DNA of 26,499 nt from the IMG/VR virus record IMGVR_UViG_3300025085_000155, positions 1-26,499 of that record, one strand, 5' to 3'. The position numbers and the translations under genes were made by a program. The stretch is from a virus. The notes beneath the pieces were generated by a model that worked only from the letters and a program-made list of their open reading frames with translations, was not told the DNA's origin and did not search any database. Shown one piece after another: positions 1 through 26,499 of the stretch (within the stretch, counting starts at the first letter, position 1; the number at the start of each line of letters is the position of its first letter).

Positions 1-69
1 GGTCTTGTCGAACTCAGTAAGGAGTTCTTCTTTCAGGTGCCTTCGCCAGTTTTCAAGGAGTAGTTTCAC
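1..69 (-). CDS. Partial gene, leader-bearing protein (N-terminus only)
   Basis: Only the first 23 codons are in the window; the gene runs off the left edge. It starts at a GTG preceded by a strong ribosome binding site (AAAGGAGG around 75-82). The first residues, MKLLLENWRRHLKEE, nearly match the N-termini of the next two genes, so this is probably a third member of the same tandem family or another protein with the same leader. Its start overlaps the end of the upstream HAD gene by 17 bases. The body of the protein cannot be seen, so membership of the HAD family is only inferred from position and leader. Confidence 0.7.
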   Translation of the reverse strand, partial: MKLLLENWRRHLKEELLTEFDKT

Positions 70-739
70 TGTGTACCTCCTTTCCGTCTAGCTTTTCCAG
101 TTGTTGTATAGTCTCGGCTGTGCTTGTATGTAAGATGGCTAGCTGTGGCAACCCCTGTGCTTCCTGTGTTTTATTCCAAGGCCCTGTATTTGTTTGGAAA
201 TCATCAATTAATACACTGGCGCTACCATCTTCGCTGATTGCCCATCTATATTTGCCGCCCGACACAAAGACCTTCGCCGGTTTGGGTTCAAGATTGTTTT
301 TAATCCAAATAAGCTTACCTCTCTTGGAGCCTCCGTCCTCGGGCCCCATGGCCGTTGTCAATATGGATGCACCAAACTTGCTTATATAATTCCATAGTTC
401 TTCGCCATCTGGCATCCATGGCAGGTTCGCCCAAAAATGTTCGTTGTCAGCAATTGCATACTTCATATAACCTCGCGCCTCATCCAATACCGTGGGCGAC
501 TCTTTATATAAATCTTCTTTTGTTATTTCTGGGCCGCGGCCAAGATCAGAGAGTCTCAGCCTTAGTTTGTCTATTGATTCCCCTGTAATGGTTTCATCTT
601 TTAAATCTTCATTTATCTTATCTACAGCAGCTTTATCAAAATCTACAAGAACGCCGTCCATATCACAATAAATTTGATAGGGGAAATTTTCATTATACTC
701 TTTTAGATACTTTCGCCAGTTTTCAAGGAGTAGTTTCAT
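53..739 (-). CDS. HAD-superfamily phosphatase / 5'-nucleotidase-like protein with N-terminal leader
   Basis: A 228-residue protein. After a 14-residue leader (MKLLLENWRKYLKE) comes HAD motif I, YCDMDGVLVDF (about residues 24-34), with the nucleophile and acid/base aspartates. A Thr in ILTTAMGP is probable motif II, the Lys of SKRGKL probable motif III, and LIDDF probable motif IV. The segment FWANLPWMPDG is typical of phage deoxynucleotidase-like HAD proteins. The likely activity is phosphomonoester hydrolysis, perhaps on nucleotides; the substrate is not shown. The ATG follows GGGGAG. The gene overlaps both neighbours by 17 bases and ends in ETTP, like its upstream paralog. The leader ends in LKE, which fits the L-x-E sites cut by T4-type prohead proteases, so packaging into the head is possible but unproven. 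Confidence 0.8.
   Translation of the reverse strand: MKLLLENWRKYLKEYNENFPYQIYCDMDGVLVDFDKAAVDKINEDLKDETITGESIDKLRLRLSDLGRGPEITKEDLYKESPTVLDEARGYMKYAIADNEHFWANLPWMPDGEELWNYISKFGASILTTAMGPEDGGSKRGKLIWIKNNLEPKPAKVFVSGGKYRWAISEDGSASVLIDDFQTNTGPWNKTQEAQGLPQLAILHTSTAETIQQLEKLDGKEVHSETTP
698..739 (-). repeat. Leader-coding repeat, copy 2 (others at 42-68 and 1395-1436)
   Basis: This 42-base stretch encodes the leader of the 228-residue HAD protein. By eye it differs by one base from 1395-1436, and its 27 bases at 712-738 match 42-68. Besides the start of one gene, copies 1 and 2 hold the ETTP-stop end of the gene before, so the gene junction itself is duplicated. Confidence 0.85.
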
Positions 740-1436
740 TATAGCTCCCCAAAGCTGCCAACGTGTTACTGACCGCCTCTGGTGTTGCCGGCGGGTAGTG
801 GTGAATGACCTGACCGCCGACAGCTTTGAACTGCTCTATATATTTAAGGCGGTCGTCAATTAAAATGGCTGTCTCGCCTTTATCAACAATTCCCGTGGCT
901 GCTAAAGCTTCGCCCTTTTCAGAGGAAAAGATCTTATCTACAAAAGGCTCGCCTTCGAAGTGGTGGTCTAGCCATTCCTTTTTCTTTTCCACAGAAATAG
1001 GTCCAACCGGTGAAGATAAAACATAAATGTTTCCCTTTTCTTTTGCTGCGTCAATCATTTCCTGTGCACCAGTGGCTACTTCCATATCTAACCAGATTTG
1101 CCCAGTTTTATCACCAAGTAACACATAAACATAATTGTTGATTGCTCTCTCTTCTGGTGTCCTCTCTTCGCCCGCATCTTTTTTAATGGTTATATCTTCC
1201 AATTGTTGGGGCGTCACCTCTGTTACAAGTACCTTCAATTTACGCAGTACCTTTATTCCCTTCTTATTACCAGCATGAACTTCATCAGGCTCAAGGGACA
1301 GATTTTTATTCATTTTGTTGGCCAGTGTTGTAACAAGATCAACCAAAACGCCGTCCATGTCAAAAAAGATGTGAAGGCTGCTGTTTTCAGCGCCCTCTTT
1401 TAGATACTTTCGCCAGTTTTCAAGGATTAGTTTCAT
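723..1436 (-). CDS. HAD-superfamily phosphatase-like protein, paralog with the same leader
   Basis: A 237-residue protein. I start it at the ATG at 1436, giving MKLILENWRKYLKEG; the frame extends eight codons further up, but this start restores the shared leader and sits after GAGGA. HAD motif I is FFDMDGVLVDL (about residues 24-34), motif II is probably the Ser in VLSSPVGP, motif III the Lys of VEKKKEW, and motif IV LIDDR. The body differs a lot from the downstream paralog while the leader is almost identical, so the leader is under separate selection or was copied recently. It ends in ETTP with its stop inside the next gene's leader. Function: phosphatase or nucleotidase, substrate unknown. 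Confidence 0.8.
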   Translation of the reverse strand: MKLILENWRKYLKEGAENSSLHIFFDMDGVLVDLVTTLANKMNKNLSLEPDEVHAGNKKGIKVLRKLKVLVTEVTPQQLEDITIKKDAGEERTPEERAINNYVYVLLGDKTGQIWLDMEVATGAQEMIDAAKEKGNIYVLSSPVGPISVEKKKEWLDHHFEGEPFVDKIFSSEKGEALAATGIVDKGETAILIDDRLKYIEQFKAVGGQVIHHYPPATPEAVSNTLAALGSYNETTP

Positions 1437-4012: not shown

Positions 4013-4358
4013 GGCTGGTCATGCCTTCAATTTTAGAAATTAAATTATCCAACTGTGCTTTTGGATCTTTTTTCTCTCTCTCATTTAAAAGTTCTGGCTC
4101 TTGAGTTGGTGTTTCAAAATGCTGAAGGTTTGACTTTAACATTAATAAAATATTCATCATCTTTTCTACTTCGGCCAACACCAGTTCATTTATGTTAGCG
4201 GCGATGCTTGGATCGATCTCTTCTTTACCCAAAGAGGAAAGCATTTCCCTCAAGAGTACATCTATTTTGGGATGAAGTCTTAAGGCTAAATGAACATCTT
4301 GTTTCAAAGCTGTTTTAAATTGATCAGCCTCCTCCATTCTTGTGTATTTAACTAACAT
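3999..4358 (-). CDS. 119-residue helical protein coupled to groEL, unknown function
   Basis: I start at the ATG at 4358 (MLVKYTRMEEADQ), seven bases after GGAG and overlapping the GroEL stop by 11 bases, so the two are probably translationally coupled. The frame could begin seven codons earlier or seven later. The protein is predicted to be nearly all helical, with heptad-like segments (about 12-46 and 55-88) and a charged linker before a final helix, KAQLDNLISKIEGM. It shows no GroES-like pattern. Its position between GroEL and Hsp20 suggests a chaperone-related, structural or substrate role, but that is inference. The hsp20 -35 box overlaps its last codons. Confidence 0.8.
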   Translation of the reverse strand: MLVKYTRMEEADQFKTALKQDVHLALRLHPKIDVLLREMLSSLGKEEIDPSIAANINELVLAEVEKMMNILLMLKSNLQHFETPTQEPELLNEREKKDPKAQLDNLISKIEGMTSLDKE

Positions 4359-5931
4359 CTTTAGTCTCCACAATCGCATGGTTGCTTGTTACCAAAGTTC
4401 CCACTGCTGATACAGAATTACGGACGGCTGTACAAGTGACCATAACCGGATCAATGATCCCATCTTTTAGTAGATTTTTAATTTCGCCACTTAAAAAATC
4501 GAACCCTTCCTCAGAACTTTCCGTTTCCAAAACCTTTCCCAGACACACATCAGCCGACATGCCGGCGTTATCCGCTAGCGTCTTGAACGGAGCCAGCATG
4601 GATTCCCTCACCACGTCATAGCCAAGCCTAGTGGCAGGATCGCCACTGGGAGCCTCTAACGCCTGATAGGCTCTTACGAGGGCCATACCACCTCCAGCAT
4701 GAATACCGCCATCCTGTGCAGATCTCACGGCTTCTAAGGCATCCTCTACACGGTGTCTCTTCTCGATCATTTCCACCTGTGTTGCGCCGCCCACTCGGAT
4801 AATGGCAACACCACTACTTAAACGAGTGATACGCTCTTGGAGCTTGTCGCATTCCGGAAGTTCCTCCGTGTTTTCAATGAGTTCTTCTAACATTTCGATA
4901 CGCTCATCCAGTTTCTTATGATCGCCTGCGCCCCCAACAAATGTAGAAGTGGTTGCTGTAATCTCACTTGTTTTACAGCGGCCAAAATCTGCTAGTTTAA
5001 ATTCTTTAAACTGCTTGCCGCTCTCTCTTTTAAAGAACGTGGCCCCGGTAGACACACATAAATCTTTTAAAATGTTGCGACGTTCCTCACCATAGCGCGG
5101 GGATTTAATTGTTACAACCTTCATTGATCCACGAAGTGCATTCATAATAAGGGCCGCTAAAAACTGGCCTTCAATGTCATCAGCAACCACAACCAGAGGC
5201 TTGTTTTCCCTAGCCGCTAATTCTAGAATTGGCATAACCGGCTCAACAAATTCTAACTTGTGGTCAGTAACAAACAATAAACAGTCCTCAAATCGACAAA
5301 GACCTCGGCGTTCATCTGTAACAAACTGGTTGGAAACAAAGCCAGAATCGATTGTGAATCCCTCAATTACCTCCAAGCTTGTTTGGTGAGATCGTGCCTC
5401 TTCAATAGAAATCGCGCCATTAGCGCCTGCCTGATCGATAGCGGTGGCAATAAGTTTTCCAATTTCGCTATCATTATTGGCAGAAATAGTGGCTACACTC
5501 TCTACATCTTCAACTCTTTTAATAAATTTAGAATTATCTTTAAGGTGTTTAATAACGTCTTCACAGGCTGCGCTCATCCCATCGATGAACGGCTTTAAAT
5601 TTACACCAGAATTTAAGTATTTAAGTGATTGGTTATAAATTTCACGAGCCAACACCGTTGAAGTGGTGGTACCATCTCCCGCGTTTTGATTCGTTTGCTT
5701 GGCAACCTGTTTAACAATAAGGGCTGCTGCGTTTTCAACAGGATCTTCTAGTGTAAAGTGATTGGCGACTGTTACGCCGTCCTTTGTAATAAAAGGATAC
5801 TTTCCCTTCGGATGTATAATTACATTTCGGCCGCTTGGACCTAACGTCGATGCCACATAATCTGCTAACTTGTTAACACCACGCTTCGTTTTATTTTGTA
5901 GTTCTTCGTTATCGCTTAAAACAACGCTCAT
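4348..5931 (-). CDS. groEL: GroEL-type chaperonin, full length and divergent
   Basis: A 527-residue group I chaperonin (E. coli GroEL is 548). The ATP-site elements are intact: STLGPSGRNVII (28-39), TKDGVTVA with D51, GDGTTTS (85-91) with D86, and RVEDALEAV with D397, matching E. coli D52, D87 and D398 almost to the residue. The apical domain keeps its layout (GFTIDSGFVSNQF, VVADDIEGQFLAAL). The glycine-methionine-rich C-terminal tail of cellular GroEL is missing; the protein ends NHAIVETKDVS. It has its own consensus promoter and a GGAGG site. Its likely role is folding phage proteins such as head or polymerase proteins; a GroES-like gene lies about 11 kb away. Phage GroELs are known but uncommon. 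Confidence 0.95.
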   Translation of the reverse strand: MSVVLSDNEELQNKTKRGVNKLADYVASTLGPSGRNVIIHPKGKYPFITKDGVTVANHFTLEDPVENAAALIVKQVAKQTNQNAGDGTTTSTVLAREIYNQSLKYLNSGVNLKPFIDGMSAACEDVIKHLKDNSKFIKRVEDVESVATISANNDSEIGKLIATAIDQAGANGAISIEEARSHQTSLEVIEGFTIDSGFVSNQFVTDERRGLCRFEDCLLFVTDHKLEFVEPVMPILELAARENKPLVVVADDIEGQFLAALIMNALRGSMKVVTIKSPRYGEERRNILKDLCVSTGATFFKRESGKQFKEFKLADFGRCKTSEITATTSTFVGGAGDHKKLDERIEMLEELIENTEELPECDKLQERITRLSSGVAIIRVGGATQVEMIEKRHRVEDALEAVRSAQDGGIHAGGGMALVRAYQALEAPSGDPATRLGYDVVRESMLAPFKTLADNAGMSADVCLGKVLETESSEEGFDFLSGEIKNLLKDGIIDPVMVTCTAVRNSVSAVGTLVTSNHAIVETKDVS

Positions 5932-11308: not shown

Positions 11309-14300
11309 CTAATTAATCATTCGCCAATTGTATTTAATTGAGCGCGTTGAGAAACCCCACGTTTCATTATAGTCTAGTTTGGCTAAATAGGGCCTATTAA
11401 TCGCGATTCTATCTCGAATTGGATCAACTCCCCAGCATTTGATTGAAAACTGATTGTTTGTATCATCAATTGTTCTTACAATGTAATAGGTCTTGCCGTG
11501 TTTGGTCTTTTTTTCAATGACTTCGCGTGGAATGAACCAAGCAATCCCCAAATCCTTGTCGAATTCTCCCAACGGCGGGATCTTGTTTTTATTAATCATG
11601 TCATAGACCTTTTTCTTAATGACCAAATTGAATGGAAAAATACCAGTCAACCCAGTTAAGTATTCAATCTTTTCCTGATCGCTGAAATCGCCTTCAGGCT
11701 TGTATAAATCGATGTTCTCGTTTAAGTTCTTTTCCTTCTTTGGTCGATCGACGGCAACTGCTGACCAGAAGTGCTTCATTCCTGTAAAGCGTTCATCAAC
11801 CATACAATTTAACGCGCCGCATCGAGTTAAAACATCCAAAGCCTTTTTGTTTAATTTAGAATAAACAACCTCCTCATTAAACAATAATTCCTCTACGGTG
11901 TTGAATGGTCGGTGTGCCAAGATTTGCTCAACCGCCTTGTCGCCCAAGCCCTTAATGGATGTCAAAGGCTGAATAAGACTCTTATTGTCTGCGCCGATGT
12001 CCCAGACCTGTCCTGATTCGTTAATGTGCGGACGCTTTACTCGATACCCAAGGCTTTGCACAATATTAATAGCTCGTTCCTTTCTTCCTTCGGGCTCTTT
12101 GTCGAGGTAAGCGGCCATCCACTCAACGGGATAGTAAGTAAGAAGATGGGCGCACTGATAGCTAAGAATACTGTAGCTGACAGCGTGGGACTTATTAAAA
12201 CCATACCCTGAGAAATACTCAAATGTTTGCCAAAGCTTTTCTGCTTCACGCATTGTGATACCTTTCTCTTCGCATCCTTCAATAAACTTGCCATGAATCT
12301 TCTTTTTCTTTTCATACGTTTTCCCCGTTGTTCCCTTTTTAGTTAGAAGTTTACGAAGCAGGTTGCCTTCGTCAAGCGTAAGATTTTTACCCAATTTGTG
12401 AGCGAGCAAAGCGATTTGCTCTTGGAAAATAAGGAAGCCATGAGTTTCCTTGGTGACCTCTTTCACTAATGGGTGCAGATACTTAACACCCTTTGGATTT
12501 CTCTTTGCCGCTACATAATGATCGTGGACCTTTGCTGATAGTGGTCCCGGTCGATAGATTGATGTAATCGCTGAAATATCAATGATGCTCGTTGGCTTCG
12601 CCTTCTTACAGAAGCCTTGTGCCCCCTTCTCTGTAAATTGGAAGACACCAGCCCATTTGCCCTTATGAAAGACATTCTTATACACCTTCTGATCATCGAG
12701 ATCTAAAACGTTGGGATCTAAATGTCGATCGTACCAGTCCTTAACATCTTGGAAAGTCGGCTCTTCCACGCCTTCGTGCCGTCGTAGGACATGCCGAATA
12801 GCGCCCTCAAGCATTCGTAAAGATGCAAGTCCCAGAATGTCAAACTTAATAAACCCAAGAGGCTCAAGATGTCTAACATTTTGCCCTTCACTCCATGGGG
12901 TCTGTTGAACGCCGGCACTATTAATAAGTGGCATGTGCTTGTTTAATTCGTCAGCAATAACCACACCACCAGCGTGACGACTGATAGATCGTACCTGTCC
13001 ATAAAGGTTATCAACATGTGTGGCGATGTGTGGATACTTGTTAAGGAACTCTTTAAGAGTGTGACTGTACTCCTTAACTTCTTCAAATGTTGGAGCATAA
13101 ACCCCTGCTGTAATTCCATGTGCTTTCTTTGCGATCGGTGTCGCCTCCTTCAACATTACACTCGTAACTTTGTTTACTTCGCTAAAGTCTAAGCCATAAA
13201 ACTTAGAGATATCTTTAATCAAAGAACGAAGCTGTAGGGTGTTGTAGTTGCTGATAGGCACTACGGTATTCTTTCCCCACTTTTCAATCAGAACTTCTTT
13301 AAGAACCATCGGATCCGCAACATCATAATCGATGTCGGGATAATCTTTAGCATCTTTGCGTAGGAACCTACTAAAGAGTAGTCCGTACTTTATGGGATCA
13401 ATCCCTGTGATACCAAGTACATACGCAACAAGAGAGCCAGCAGCACTGCCCCTCCCAGCACCGACAAGTTGGGTTTTCTTAGCTTCATCGCTTACCGCCT
13501 TCATAGTTAAAAAGTATTTCGAAAAGCCACGGTCTTTAATGACCTGTAGCTCTTCTTTTACTCGTTGAATGTATTCTGGTTGTTTGTCGAATCCGTATTC
13601 GCTGATTCCCCTGTTACATAGTCGATCAAGTTCTTGATCGGCGGTGCTTCCGTCAGGGACCACAAAATCAGGAAGACGCACAGTAGAATCAGGAGAAAAG
13701 CTAGCAATCCGTTCGTGAGCAATTCTATAAGTCTCTTCGATGCTCTCTCGTACCAAGTCGTCGTCATAATTTACCTCGCATTGTTTTGAATAGTTGTTGT
13801 AAGACTCCCACATTTCATCGCCATTCTTTGGGTATAGTTCATACTTCAATTCTTCTCGACTCTGTGGGAGTGTGTTTTCTGCATAGTCTGGCTTAGACTT
13901 TCCAAGCCAACCAAGCTGTCTGTAAAGTGATCGATCTTTAAAGAGATCTGGACGCGGGTAATGACTATCTGCTGTAGAGATAAGTTTAACGTCCAGCTTC
14001 TTTGAAGCCTCGATAATGTGCTTGTTGATTTCGTGCTGTTCTGGGATAGCATTCCACTGAAGCTCTCCATAGAACCTATCGCCAAAGATCTCAACAAAGT
14101 TGTCAATTGTTTCGGTCATCGCGGCTTGTACAGCCTCGTGGCCGCTCTCACGGTTGTTCCAGTAATCTTTGGATAGTGGACCACCCATACAAGCAGAAGA
14201 CACGATAATGCCCTCATGGTGCTCTGCTAGCATCTTATAATCAATACGAGGATAGCGATAAAAACTATCGCCGTTAAATGATTTACTAATTAACTGAAAT

Positions 14301-14740
14301 AAATTGTTTAGGCCCGTTTGGTTTTGAGCCAACAGTACCAAGTGTGCTCGTCGGTTAATGATGTTCTTTTCTTGACGCTTTGTAGCCTCTTCATCCTCAA
14401 CAACAACGGCGCTGTTCTCTTCTTTCTTTTTACGACCCTTTTTACTCTTTCGAATTTCTTCGTAATCTTCTTTCCATTTGTCAACGGAGTCAATAAAGTA
14501 AGCCTCAATCCCATAGATTGGCTTAAAATCTTTGCCCTCTGCCTGCATCTTTTTAGCATGAAGCACCTGATGTGATAGCCCATTCATGTTGCCGTGGTCT
14601 GTCAACGCCAGAGCATCACAGCCATTTTCATAGGCAAAGTTCATGTGGTCTTGAGGATAACCCAAACCATCGAACACACTAAACACACTATGCGCGTGCA
14701 AGCCAACAAACTTAACACTCGACTTATTCACTACACTCAT
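11309..14740 (-). CDS. dnaE: DNA polymerase III alpha subunit (DnaE type)
   Basis: A 1143-residue replicative polymerase, close to E. coli DnaE (1160). The N-terminal PHP domain starts GLHAHSVFSVFDG, with TDHGN and IYGIEAY following. The palm has GRGSAAGSLVAYVLGI and PDIDYD, with the paired aspartates, and the third aspartate in KFDILGL. The finger region includes YRPGPLSAKVHD, HGFLIFQEQ and YFSGYGFNKSHAVSYSI. A helix-hairpin-helix, IKGLGDKAVEQIL, comes near residue 950, then a C-terminal OB-like region. Catalytic elements look complete. It would be the phage's own DNA polymerase; no separate epsilon or clamp gene is visible here. The ATG follows GGAG and overlaps the preceding gene by 17 bases. 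Confidence 0.96.
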   Translation of the reverse strand: MSVVNKSSVKFVGLHAHSVFSVFDGLGYPQDHMNFAYENGCDALALTDHGNMNGLSHQVLHAKKMQAEGKDFKPIYGIEAYFIDSVDKWKEDYEEIRKSKKGRKKKEENSAVVVEDEEATKRQEKNIINRRAHLVLLAQNQTGLNNLFQLISKSFNGDSFYRYPRIDYKMLAEHHEGIIVSSACMGGPLSKDYWNNRESGHEAVQAAMTETIDNFVEIFGDRFYGELQWNAIPEQHEINKHIIEASKKLDVKLISTADSHYPRPDLFKDRSLYRQLGWLGKSKPDYAENTLPQSREELKYELYPKNGDEMWESYNNYSKQCEVNYDDDLVRESIEETYRIAHERIASFSPDSTVRLPDFVVPDGSTADQELDRLCNRGISEYGFDKQPEYIQRVKEELQVIKDRGFSKYFLTMKAVSDEAKKTQLVGAGRGSAAGSLVAYVLGITGIDPIKYGLLFSRFLRKDAKDYPDIDYDVADPMVLKEVLIEKWGKNTVVPISNYNTLQLRSLIKDISKFYGLDFSEVNKVTSVMLKEATPIAKKAHGITAGVYAPTFEEVKEYSHTLKEFLNKYPHIATHVDNLYGQVRSISRHAGGVVIADELNKHMPLINSAGVQQTPWSEGQNVRHLEPLGFIKFDILGLASLRMLEGAIRHVLRRHEGVEEPTFQDVKDWYDRHLDPNVLDLDDQKVYKNVFHKGKWAGVFQFTEKGAQGFCKKAKPTSIIDISAITSIYRPGPLSAKVHDHYVAAKRNPKGVKYLHPLVKEVTKETHGFLIFQEQIALLAHKLGKNLTLDEGNLLRKLLTKKGTTGKTYEKKKKIHGKFIEGCEEKGITMREAEKLWQTFEYFSGYGFNKSHAVSYSILSYQCAHLLTYYPVEWMAAYLDKEPEGRKERAINIVQSLGYRVKRPHINESGQVWDIGADNKSLIQPLTSIKGLGDKAVEQILAHRPFNTVEELLFNEEVVYSKLNKKALDVLTRCGALNCMVDERFTGMKHFWSAVAVDRPKKEKNLNENIDLYKPEGDFSDQEKIEYLTGLTGIFPFNLVIKKKVYDMINKNKIPPLGEFDKDLGIAWFIPREVIEKKTKHGKTYYIVRTIDDTNNQFSIKCWGVDPIRDRIAINRPYLAKLDYNETWGFSTRSIKYNWRMIN

Positions 14741-15968: not shown

Positions 15969-16707
15969 TGGTATTGTCTATAATGTTGTCAGGCAAATTT
16001 AAATTATAATGTGCCCTTTTTAATCTTTTGTGGTGGTAAAGCTTCGTTACGTTTCCCTTCACATGAGACTTGTGACCATTTATTTTAAGCCACCATCCAA
16101 CTTTACGGCGGACCATGAACTCTGAATGTTCGTGACTATTGAGTTGCTTGGCCGTTAATTTAGACTTAATGTACATTAAATTCTGTTTTCCAAAACTAAT
16201 TTCCGTCACAAAACAATCTTCGTCTGTGATAAATGTTTTGTTATCAGGGGTTAGTAGATAACGTTTTTTAAGAACATCCACAACTTCATAATAATTTACA
16301 GTCCTTCTTATGTTCTCTATCTCTTCCGCATCAAATAAAAACAACTTCTTAAAATAAAGTTTTTGTGAGGAAGTTTGAGAGATTAAGGACAGGTAGCCAC
16401 TTCTCAAATAGATTAAATCTATTGAAGGAAAAATTAGTTTTCCAGTGATCGCCAATTTTATTTTCTCGGTGGCCACAACATCTTGAAGCTGTTGGTCTTC
16501 TCCGCTCACCTCGTGTGAAAAATAAACAACCTTCCCATTGGTTAAGAGGGGAAGGTTGTTATCCACAGCAAAATCAACTGCTTTTAAAGTTGCGCCGGCG
16601 ACCAATTCATCACATTCAAATGTCGCTGGTGCTACTAATTTCATTTTTAGTTTATTATAATAGCGCAGTGGCTGGCCAAAAAAATCAATTAACCACGCCC
16701 AGAACAT
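15961..16707 (-). CDS. Protein of unknown function paired with the nucleotidyltransferase-like gene
   Basis: Up to 248 residues. The longest start (ATG at 16707, MFWAWLIDFFGQPLRYY) overlaps the GroES-like gene by 23 bases and lacks a clear ribosome binding site; a later ATG at 16644 (MKLVAPATFECDELV) is the alternative. The segment FECDELVAGATLKAVDFAVD followed by NNLPLLTNG looks like a nucleotide- or sugar-binding alpha/beta start. The C-terminal third is basic (MVRRKVGWWLKINGHKSHVK). I do not recognise the family. Its tight coupling to the 305-residue gene suggests a shared pathway, perhaps modification of a sugar or nucleotide, but that is inference. Confidence 0.7.
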   Translation of the reverse strand: MFWAWLIDFFGQPLRYYNKLKMKLVAPATFECDELVAGATLKAVDFAVDNNLPLLTNGKVVYFSHEVSGEDQQLQDVVATEKIKLAITGKLIFPSIDLIYLRSGYLSLISQTSSQKLYFKKLFLFDAEEIENIRRTVNYYEVVDVLKKRYLLTPDNKTFITDEDCFVTEISFGKQNLMYIKSKLTAKQLNSHEHSEFMVRRKVGWWLKINGHKSHVKGNVTKLYHHKRLKRAHYNLNLPDNIIDNTNG

Positions 16708-16957
16708 GGTTTTCTAAAATCAAATGGCATGTTTCGCCAAATACCATGGCTTCGCGCAACATGTGTCCCTCAACAACAATTTTATCACCCATGTTTAACA
16801 CGTTATAAAATTTAGAATCATCGGCCACAGACTTAACAGCAACAACTTCAAACTCTTTTTGGTTAGTTACCATGTCATCTGGTAAATAAAATGTAGGCTT
16901 CGAATTTTCCTCTTCAGCTAGTGGCTCTACCACCACCATTCTATTCAACGGTTTCAT
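16685..16957 (-). CDS. GroES-like co-chaperonin
   Basis: A 90-residue protein with the GroES layout: MKPLNRMVVVEPLAEEE (GroES IRPLHDRVIVKR), a flexible segment with a hydrophobic FYLP at about 24-27 where GroES has its mobile loop, then EFEVVAVKS, a MGDKIVVEG turn (GroES VGDIVIF) and the C-terminal CHLILENHVLGVV (GroES VLIMSESDILAIV). GroES is 97 residues and phage T4 gp31 is 111. It would cap a GroEL ring; whether it prefers the phage GroEL at 4348-5931 or the host one is unknown. It overlaps the upstream stop by ATGA after GGAG. Identification is by pattern, with low overall identity. Confidence 0.8.
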   Translation of the reverse strand: MKPLNRMVVVEPLAEEENSKPTFYLPDDMVTNQKEFEVVAVKSVADDSKFYNVLNMGDKIVVEGHMLREAMVFGETCHLILENHVLGVVN

Positions 16958-17211
16958 TCAACTGTCTCCTTTTCCGCAAAACCAGTCTCAATGGACTCGT
17001 AAATGGCTGTAAGGTCGTCAAAATTAATTTGTTGTTCCCACATGCGAAATGCCTTGGTTGCCATCGAGATTTCGTCTTTTGATAACCAACGGTTATCGAC
17101 AAAGTTACGTCGAAGGTCCTTTCGTTGTTCGCGGTATGGCCTCATGCTATCTTCAATAGCTGCCAATGATTGTACATACTCTGCAAATTTTTGTCGCTTT
17201 TCCTTTTCCAC
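16954..17211 (-). CDS. Small helical protein, unknown function
   Basis: An 85-residue protein starting at a GTG six bases after AGGAGG. Predicted all-helical: KRQKFAEYVQSLAAIED, MRPYREQRKDLRRNFVDNRW, LSKDEISMATKAFRMWEQQI, FDDLTAIYESIE. The 'PYREQRKDL' to 'N-WLSKDE' pattern seems familiar from unannotated phage proteins, but no function is known to me. It is ATGA-coupled to the GroES-like gene downstream. Confidence 0.75.
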   Translation of the reverse strand: MEKEKRQKFAEYVQSLAAIEDSMRPYREQRKDLRRNFVDNRWLSKDEISMATKAFRMWEQQINFDDLTAIYESIETGFAEKETVE

Positions 17212-17220
17212 TACTTCCTC

Positions 17221-17448
17221 CTATAATATATTAGTGTTTTCAGATTCTTGTTGGACGATTCGTCCAGATGCAAAAGACCACCGATGGTAAACAACGCCTT
17301 TTGTATCCACCCTGTGTTCCATAACAAGGTGGTTGTCGCTTGCTGGCGCGCCCTCTTGTTTACAGACCGGGCATTTATAATGTCGCCCAACGGTAATGTC
17401 GTAAATGTTCTCAACCCTTGAGCAGTGCTCGTTCCCTTTCCGATTCAT
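17221..17448 (-). CDS. Small zinc-knuckle-like protein
   Basis: A 75-residue protein. After a basic start comes a YDITVGRHYKCPVCKQEGA segment with a CPVC pair, and further His residues (DNHLVMEHRVD, YHRWSF) that could complete a metal site. The ATG lies eight bases after GGGGAG and overlaps the upstream gene by 38 bases. A different frame here (17211-17414) lacks the cysteine pair and is not chosen. Function unknown; possibly a nucleic-acid-binding knuckle. Confidence 0.65.
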   Translation of the reverse strand: MNRKGNEHCSRVENIYDITVGRHYKCPVCKQEGAPASDNHLVMEHRVDTKGVVYHRWSFASGRIVQQESENTNIL

Positions 17449-17575
17449 TCAATTTCTCCCCTTGTTCTTCTCGCTCTAACAGTTTAGCAAGATCTTCGTA
17501 CTTTGTCAAGACCTCTTGAGTTGTTAAATTCTCTTCGTTTTTTAGCTTTTCAATTATTTGTTTAATTTTTCCCAT
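17411..17575 (-). CDS. Small helical protein next to tRNA-Thr
   Basis: 54 residues from the ATG at 17575 (MGKIKQIIEKLKNEEN), six bases after AGGAGG. The frame runs on upstream but that part is the tRNA-Thr gene, so the later start is required. Predicted two-helix protein, very charged, with LTTQEVLTKYEDLAKLLERE. Function unknown. It follows the tRNA by less than 20 bases and was probably processed from the same transcript. Confidence 0.7.
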   Translation of the reverse strand: MGKIKQIIEKLKNEENLTTQEVLTKYEDLAKLLEREEQGEKLNESERERALLKG

Positions 17576-17592
17576 CTCAAATCCTCCTTTGG

Positions 17593-17668
17593 TGGAGCCA
17601 CAAACAGGAGTCGAACCCGTGGCATCGTCATTACAAGTGACGCGCTCTACCAACTGAGCTATTGTGGC
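17593..17668 (-). tRNA. tRNA-Thr (anticodon UGU)
   Basis: A standard 76-base cloverleaf: acceptor GCCACAA with TTGTGGC, D arm GCTC...GAGC, anticodon stem CGTCA/TGACG with loop CTTGTAA (anticodon TGT), T arm ACGGG/CCTGT, and encoded CCA. It lies 65 bases after the tmRNA and likely shares its transcript. Confidence 0.96.
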
Positions 17669-17733
17669 TTTGTAGTTTTTATCCTCTGCGCATCTAATTC
17701 TTCTGCCCTAAAGGTGGAAACGCCCAGATTGGT

Positions 17734-18100
17734 TGGTGGAGTCGGAGGGAGTCGAACCCTCGTCCTAAACACATCAAATTTTTCGTCATTCACAAGGTTG
17801 TTTGGTTATTTGACACCAACAAACTCTGCGCCACGCGCCACCTACTTTTTTTAAGAGAAGTAAGAAACTCTGGCGGCATAGCCTCCACCAAGTTTATTTA
17901 TTTGGAAAACTTGGAAAACCTCATTAGCAGTCTTTGGTTTACAAGGCGCTGCCGGTCCCCGTAACTATGCCGCTAGGGCGTAGTTATAATTTTCAACGTT
18001 ATCGTTGGCAATTAAAATGTTTCAGCGTTTTTAAAGAGCCACGCTGCCCTCTTCCTTGCACGAAAAATCCTCCTTGCCCAGTCGAAACCGTTTCGACCCC
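17734..18100 (-). ncRNA. ssrA: tmRNA (transfer-messenger RNA), one-piece form
   Basis: The 5' end reads GGGGTCGAAACGGTTTCGAC, matching the tmRNA consensus, and pairs through GGGGTCG/CGACTCC with the 3' end. The 3' part has GGACGAGGGTTCGACTCCC followed by the acceptor strand, A and CCA, very like E. coli tmRNA. At 18009-17965 is a tag reading frame: GCC AAC GAT AAC GTT GAA AAT TAT AAC TAC GCC CTA GCG GCA TAG, giving ANDNVENYNYALAA, which ends in the protease-recognised ALAA. The total of 367 bases is close to E. coli's 363. With host SmpB it would rescue stalled ribosomes and tag the unfinished protein for destruction. A perfect -35 box lies upstream. It sits between a DUF3310 gene and tRNA-Thr. 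Confidence 0.93.
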
Positions 18101-18118
18101 GTATAGTAATTATTTGTC

Positions 18119-18148
18119 TCTGTACATAAAATGAACTATTAGTGTCAA
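18119..18148 (-). promoter_or_regulatory. Probable tmRNA promoter
   Basis: A perfect TTGACA (18143-18148) with a weak TACAGA (18119-18124) 18 bases downstream, just before the tmRNA 5' end at 18100. The -10 is poor, so the exact start is uncertain. Confidence 0.5.
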
Positions 18149-25683: not shown

Positions 25684-26499
25684 TTATATTTTAATTTTCA
25701 TGTAAGAGCCGCCACCATAATCGTTTATCTTAAAATAGATGGTGCCGTCCTCTGTTCTTTTTAAAGGCAGGAGTTTGTCATTGCTCGTTGAATTTGTAAA
25801 AGCCATTACATCGGGGTACGAAGCAGGGTCAACAATTTGGAGATCATTAAAGTTTTCCCCCAACGCATTACGAAGATCGCCGGTATCTACAAAATCCGCG
25901 CTCCCTGCCGTTTCTCTTTTGTATTCCTCTCGTTCGACCTTGGTGGGAACACCGGGCATGGCTTCTTCTACTTCACTCTCGTTTAAGTGCTCTCTAAAGC
26001 TCTCCATTGTATCTTTCATTGTTAGCGGCTTAAGCGGCGACTTGGATTCGTCAACCCTGCCGGATAAAGCCTTAAGATTCTTATAAGCTGCTCGCCACGC
26101 GATGTTGTTGGCGGTGGCGCCTTTTATAGTGTTCATGATTTTTTCATCACTCACCCCTTTCTTCCTTGCGGCTTTGATCCACTTACCAAACACACCGCCA
26201 CCGTGTTTCATGGAAAAAGAGTCAATTGTTTTAGCCAAATCTAAACCGGGAGCTTTTGCTGCGCCTTGGGGCTTCGCCTTGCCTGCGGCTTGGGGCTTCG
26301 CCTTGCCTGCGGCTTGGGGCTTCGCCTTGCCTGCGGCGGTGCCTTTGCCAGCACCTTTTAAATAATCAACAAGGGCACGAACGCTTTTCTTAAATGAGCC
26401 TTGGCGCTTGGGAGCATTTTTATCAGTTTTTCTCAATGCGTCAATTGCCCCTTGAGTCTTTCCGCCGTAAATACCATCGGCACCTGGGGCATATCCCGG
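25684..26499 (-). CDS. Partial structural-type protein with repeat linker (N-terminus cut off)
   Basis: The frame is open to the window's right edge: 271 residues are visible, and a TTG at 26436 is not a real start. The first residues, GYAPGADGIYGGKTQGAI, resemble a PG_binding_1 repeat. A basic region and a linker of three AGKAKPQA-like units follow (24-base tandem DNA repeats), then a helical WIKAARKKGVSDEKIMNTIK region, and MKDTMESFREHLNESEVEE, a segment like the HAD leaders that ends in L-N-E, fitting T4-type prohead protease sites. The C-terminal 100 residues are mixed alpha/beta. It precedes the endolysin by 19 bases. Role: perhaps a virion-associated peptidoglycan-binding protein. Confidence 0.75.
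   Translation of the reverse strand, partial: PGYAPGADGIYGGKTQGAIDALRKTDKNAPKRQGSFKKSVRALVDYLKGAGKGTAAGKAKPQAAGKAKPQAAGKAKPQGAAKAPGLDLAKTIDSFSMKHGGGVFGKWIKAARKKGVSDEKIMNTIKGATANNIAWRAAYKNLKALSGRVDESKSPLKPLTMKDTMESFREHLNESEVEEAMPGVPTKVEREEYKRETAGSADFVDTGDLRNALGENFNDLQIVDPASYPDVMAFTNSTSNDKLLPLKRTEDGTIYFKINDYGGGSYMKIKI
26265..26336 (-). repeat. Three tandem 24-base repeats
   Basis: Three identical 24-base units (26265-26288, 26289-26312, 26313-26336) encode the AGKAKPQ-type linker in the partial structural-type protein. The units are GC-rich compared with their surroundings. Copy number may vary by slippage. Confidence 0.92.

Follow-up and report, generated by a model that had tools for sequence, protein, structure and literature searches.

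One question raised by the genes at the edge of this viral contig is why two HAD-type proteins with dissimilar bodies, and a third gene truncated by the contig end, begin with nearly the same 14 residues. The initial annotation had suggested that this leader is a capsid-targeting signal, by which nucleotidases would be packed in the head and injected with the DNA. The window analysed here (the whole stretch of DNA, 26,499 bases) is a complete IMG/VR record. The results presented below indicate that the leader MKLLLENWRKYLKE is probably a capsid-targeting propeptide of the T4 type, placed on an enlarged set of cargo proteins. What carries this reading is the identity of the leaders, their restriction to N-termini, their boundary at a hydrophobic-x-Glu motif, the unrelated bodies behind them, the T4-type protease and head genes of the relatives and the copying of leader DNA, all of which were observed.

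Leader copies and leader genes in the window

The leader is present on both HAD proteins and on the partial third gene, all on the minus strand (Table 1), as had been described. The bodies of the two HADs differ as much as had been claimed (25% identity over 182 residues), and therefore the similarity of the leaders far exceeds that of the remainder of the proteins. The earlier figure of one base in 42 for the divergence of the leader DNA is valid for copies 1 and 2 only, since copy 3 differs from these at 6 and 7 bases. Both HADs share the C-terminus ETTP.

Table 1. Features of the window. Positions in brackets are given in the direction of the coding strand.
Feature	Position	Strand	Remarks
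Leader copy 1, MKLLLENWRKYLKE	698..739 (739-698)	minus	N-terminus of ORF 53-739; predicted cut follows Glu14 (bases 698/697)
HAD 5'(3')-deoxyribonucleotidase-like protein with leader 1, 228 aa	53..739	minus	PHROG 2643, PDB profile, AlphaFold
Leader copy 2, MKLILENWRKYLKE	1395..1436 (1436-1395)	minus	41/42 bases identical to copy 1; predicted cut follows Glu14 (bases 1395/1394)
Second HAD nucleotidase with leader 2, 237 aa	723..1436	minus	Pfam NT5C match
Leader copy 3, GTG start, (V/M)KLLLENWRRHLKE	28..69 (69-28)	minus	Shine-Dalgarno-like GGAGG upstream
Partial third leader gene, 23 codons visible	1..69	minus	Begins (GTG) MKLLLENWRRHLKE; exits at the window edge
17-base overlap	723..739	minus	Upstream HAD (..NETTP stop) terminates at a TGA within the next leader (CTT GAA)
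Second 17-base overlap	53..69	minus	Like arrangement with leader copy 3 (..SETTP stop)
Internal leader-like segment ESFREHLNE	25978..26004	minus	Residue 166 of an open-ended ORF
Candidate further head protein, very acidic, 256 residues	7798..8568	minus	RRWAKYAGI (8532-8506), scaffold-tail-like, near the N-terminus, then FLSE-A
DnaE-type polymerase III alpha	11309-14740
GroEL	4348-5931
Cpn10-like protein	16685-16957
tmRNA	17734-18100		Tag ANDNVENYNYALAA

The first HAD matched PHROG 2643 (E 5e-16) and, in a profile search of the PDB, mitochondrial 5' nucleotidase (E 1e-8). The second matched Pfam NT5C (PF06941) at 3e-9, above the cut-off. The catalytic motifs DMDGVLVD and IDD are present, and in profile and fold searches the HAD body fell among HAD hydrolases, including 5'(3')-deoxyribonucleotidases. 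AlphaFold modelled the first HAD with a mean pLDDT of 91.6; residues 2-16 formed an isolated N-terminal helix (pLDDT 63-75), with most of the body above 90.

The protein at 25684-26499 had been cited as a parallel because of its segment ESFREHLNE. That parallel was withdrawn: the segment is internal (26004-25978) and not an N-terminal leader, although its score is unusual and was equalled by 6 of 196,564 internal windows. MESFREHLNE might be a processing site within a longer virion protein. The window also has phage genes for a DnaE-type polymerase, a tmRNA, GroEL and a Cpn10-like protein; the relatives in this clade possess heads of the T4 type.

Distribution of the leader and its cargo

IMG/VR and GTDB were searched with a degenerate pattern of the leader DNA in which all third positions of the leucine codons were left open. 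In a recurrence far above chance, at least 119 stretches matched in IMG/VR, and a single contig among the 84,980 genomes of GTDB. The latter, L254 (PBSV01000031.1), was binned into an Opitutia MAG; it looks like phage DNA and carries several leader genes of the two classes (A and B) described below. A six-frame scan of the related viral loci that were fetched yielded 280 distinct leader proteins of at least 50 residues, far more than had been reported, with the leader virtually always at the N-terminus. According to BLAST they form about 120 body families, with 83 singletons. Most of these families remained unnamed in the Pfam search; the domains recognized were protein kinase, zeta-toxin/AAA kinase, GNAT acetyltransferase, ART-PolyVal (PF18760), exonuclease, HD, PAP2, NUDIX, NT5C, nucleotidyltransferase, transglutaminase-like and ParB. 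The carriers are accessory enzymes, as expected of an injected set, and not replication or tail genes, which agrees with the initial proposal. No isolate with the leader was found by tblastn against INPHARED, and the leader motif strings gave no match in the literature searched.

A short, amphipathic N-terminal peptide on many enzymes might also be a secretion or membrane signal that places them in the envelope or the periplasm. However, charged residues occur throughout the leader, which has neither a hydrophobic core nor a small-residue signal-peptidase site, the nucleotidase and kinase cargo would be cytosolic, and the leader lies in viral contigs, of which the larger records contain an S77 protease gene. 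The probability of this explanation is close to negligible.

The leader ends at a hydrophobic-x-Glu motif

In the alignment of the 280 leader proteins, information exceeded 2.4 bits throughout the leader, with two positions excepted, and Trp8 was kept in 273. Conservation dropped abruptly after Glu14, from 3.0 bits at this residue to 0.59 at residue 15 and to 0.3 or less thereafter. Residues 12-14 read hydrophobic-x-Glu in 249/280 proteins; all 249 leaders with Glu14 have L, I, V or M two residues before it, a regularity that was partly imposed by the search pattern. Register shifts were used as an independent test of this boundary. Among the 31 leaders devoid of Glu14, 23 retain a hydrophobic-x-Glu 1-3 residues away; counted by independent family, 12 of 19 do so (background 8%, p about 4e-9), and five of the seven remaining families have Asp in place of Glu. 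The gp21 protease of T4 cleaves after L/I-x-E (PMC9026906), so the leader stops exactly at the motif of this protease, as the initial annotation had noticed for the window copies. In the capsid-targeting sequence (CTS) of T4, Asp at the cut position permits targeting and blocks processing (PMC9026906).

Several leader classes detected by an unbiased test

The N-termini of all unrelated protein pairs of each genome were compared without prior choice of a motif, using internal segments as controls. In four near relatives of the window, 115, 53, 21 and 38 similar N-terminal pairs were obtained, versus 1, 1, 2 and 5 pairs in the internal controls. As positive control, T4 gave IPII and IPIII, and also IPI at lower stringency; the proteins recovered are exactly its known capsid-targeted internal proteins. 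Cyanophage Syn9, considered as a second positive control, showed no leader family in this test and therefore serves as negative control.

Two leader classes were found in each of the four relatives. Class A, the leader of the window, forms clusters of 14, 7, 7 and 8 genes. In class B, MKLTKSQLKQIIKEEL precedes a hydrophobic-x-Glu that is weaker and lies near residue 22. This class forms clusters of 9, 10, 3 and 7 genes; over all loci it comprises 66 proteins of 60 families. A derivation of class B from the N-terminus of the gp68-like core protein was discarded, the class B profile having scored those genes near -20. The only true class B gene in a head cluster (G001 16921-17532) adjoins the S77 protease gene (G001 17536-18144). 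The likeness of class A to the pro-region of the capsid protein (RLLENQAKELLRE) was also abandoned, given that it was not ranked by a profile scan of internal positions, and our claim is limited to the common hydrophobic-x-Glu ending. No source of class A was found, two parallels having failed a profile test.

Other leaders were observed as well. MIKLxDLLKE, which resembles the N-terminus of T4 gp24 (MAKINELLRE), occurs on five unrelated genes in G008 86106-119475 and on three in G011 29315-76184. Unrelated proteins of genomes G010, G011, G007 and G008 begin with M.NFDLKKFLVENKLTxNSxLLKE, and two of them adjoin the S77 protease.

The nucleotidase carries different leaders or none

In other T4-type phages the same nucleotidase starts with MGKLADLLLE, MNTSIVDLLE, MKKSLKELLNE or METSIVTLLE, all of which end in hydrophobic-x-Glu, and one copy (locus L044) bears a class B leader. 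The extension of the nucleotidase in the isolates HTVC008M and Melnitz ends in LVQE and SINE, respectively. The nucleotidase of five isolates (phiM5, Karma, phiXF1, Atu_ph07 and Phosso) has no such leader. Since an S77 match is present in phiXF1, Atu_ph07 and Phosso, the leader is not obligatory where the protease exists. This variety, including the absence of any leader, indicates that the leader is an add-on to a free-standing enzyme.

Head genes and the scaffold tail in the relatives

Head genes were looked for in the window record (26.5 kb) and none were found. The prohead protease, named in the initial annotation as a check, was found in the relatives: PF03420 (Peptidase_S77) is present in all four that were read through, and in all those records of the set searched that reach 130 kb, although these share ancestry, were partly chosen by the leader and are not independent counts. 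The four relatives encode terminase, portal, S77 protease (E 1.5e-32), an acidic gp22-like scaffold and the Gp23 capsid protein (E 1.7e-71) in T4-like order. The window is syntenic with them, with DnaE identity of 60-66%. Their capsid pro-regions align with that of T4 gp23 and end in LLRE or LLKE, followed by a variable linker, whereas in other lineages the pro-region ends in IVSE or LVVE. Because the capsid pro-regions end, like the leaders, in hydrophobic-x-Glu, the local protease appears to follow the same cut rule.

The gp22-like scaffold ends in a C-terminal tail, RMQKLAGI (e.g. RMQKLAGIIK), in 8/8 scaffolds, and is the sole protein with this motif at the C-terminus in those eight genomes. 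At the N-terminus the motif is confined to another leader class, with four proteins distributed over two of the eight genomes (e.g. MKKQILSEQFKRMQFLAGIITE). Hence, at least one leader class copies an element of the scaffold, which suggests how such tags dock. The candidate head protein of the window with a scaffold-tail-like segment (Table 1) has counterparts in the same neighbourhood of two relatives (G001 157149-157784 and G016 116070-117146).

The leader might instead be a docking tag for another phage complex, such as a replication factory, the chaperonin or a membrane site, with the final Glu lying within the docking helix. An amphipathic helix of 14 residues could bind many partners, and GroEL and Cpn10 are encoded by these phages. 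Such a tag leaves unexplained that hydrophobic-x-Glu follows the register shifts, that conservation stops exactly after Glu, that different leaders on the same enzyme have like endings, and that one leader class copies the scaffold tail; we therefore consider it unlikely.

The T4 late promoter TATAAATA, considered as a sign of late expression, precedes 21 gene starts in T4 and hardly any in these phages; no T4-type late promoter was found before the leader genes.

Copying of the leader DNA

The leucine codons of the leader are CTC-CTA-CTT in 27 of 37 independent families, versus 0.26% expected from codon usage. This excess indicates that all copies of the leader DNA descend from one source and have spread by copying between genes that are otherwise unrelated. 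Among 250 leader genes, 165 overlap the stop codon of the preceding gene; 123 have a 4-base ATGA overlap, and 24 the 17-base overlap seen in the window, in which codons 5-6 contain the TGA. In G016 (74956-76791; L224 14956-15030) a 611-residue ORF ends C-terminally in a copy of the class A leader (CLFENWRGFLKED stop), and the next leader gene, whose start DNA is nearly identical, follows after a few bases. This fusion is a trace of recombination at the leader sequence. Together with the comparison of the window copies, these results support the earlier suggestion that the leader is copied between genes.

The same data would suit a mobile cassette, which seeds recombination or supplies a start that also holds stop codons for the upstream frame, its peptide having no targeting role: the leucine codon choice, the frequent stop overlaps and the tandem leader copy fused to a C-terminus in G016 all fit. 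However, Arg9, Leu12 and Glu14 are retained although their codons vary, which points to selection on the peptide, the upstream DNA is unconserved beyond a weak ribosome-site signal, and unrelated leader classes share their ending. A cassette alone is thus very unlikely. Both ideas are compatible, since the copied DNA may encode a useful tag.

Proposed function of the leader

The protease, the type of cargo, the boundary at the motif and the copying of the leader DNA support the capsid-targeting reading put forward in the initial annotation. By analogy with T4, the amphipathic helix of residues 2-14 would dock the cargo into the prohead core, and the S77 prohead protease of the phage would cut after the hydrophobic-x-Glu (Glu14). 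The freed enzyme would remain with the packaged DNA and be injected on infection, so that the two nucleotidases would be delivered before expression of any phage gene. There the cargo may act on the host.

These results suggest that uncultured, mostly aquatic T4-like phages place a common 14-residue tag on at least 100 unrelated kinds of protein and thereby carry a ready-made set in the capsid for injection. With about an even chance of being right, we further propose a "head address code" of several short propeptides that are unrelated to one another, one or more of which copy the scaffold tail RMQKLAGI. All would end at the cut site of the head protease and, exchanged as DNA cassettes, would come to lie on dozens of enzymes in each lineage. 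The virion would then be preloaded with replaceable host-modifying and counter-defence proteins.

The proteins injected by a phage are usually unknown without purified virions, and for this clade no virion proteomics or mass spectrometry was found in the literature, including Flavobacterium phage immuto and its close kin. A readable N-terminal tag would list the probable injected proteins of unculturable phages, about 120 families, straight from metagenomes. In T4 the injected Alt protein modifies RNA polymerase. The few known tagged proteins of this phage block host restriction enzymes (PMC12373910, PMC3012670). With both precedents, it is plausible that new enzymes of counter-defence and host take-over are to be found in the tag list. 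As a packaging signal, the tag should moreover be portable.

Comparison with known systems

The phage nucleotidases resemble the NT5C and PHROG 2643 families in HAD fold, DxDGV and IDD motifs and profile matches, and differ from NT5C in bearing lineage-specific propeptide-like extensions.

The idea of a CTS is already T4's; the literature searched has no description of a cargo set of this size and enzymatic kind, of several leader classes or of a leader that copies the scaffold tail. As in the T4 internal proteins, a short helix-like N-terminal leader on non-homologous, widely differing proteins ends in hydrophobic-x-Glu, the motif cut by the gp21-type S77 protease, with T4-type head genes in the same genomes (here, in the relatives). 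T4 has three internal proteins, which are small inhibitors, whereas here 7-14 class A and 3-10 class B genes per genome encode enzymes. The leader described here also differs from the T4 CTS in sequence, in its length of 14 residues, in its nearly invariant Trp8, in the existence of several classes and in the copying of its DNA among genes. With MKTYQEFIAE of T4 the leader shares its architecture; 10-14 residues are a short basis for comparison, and no homology in sequence was demonstrable.

In SPN3US and phiKZ the head protease also removes N-terminal propeptides of ejected proteins (PMC10052503, PMC7411985), but these are mostly long (111-254 residues) and protein-specific, unlike the leader reported here. 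T4 Alt is an ADP-ribosyltransferase that is injected and whose 7-residue N-terminal propeptide is cleaved by gp21 (PMC9026906). Alt and the leader proteins described here have in common a short propeptide, or putative propeptide, on an injected or putatively injected enzyme, and ART-like domains (PF18760) occur among the leader proteins. Alt, however, is a single protein, whereas here one leader is common to many enzyme families.
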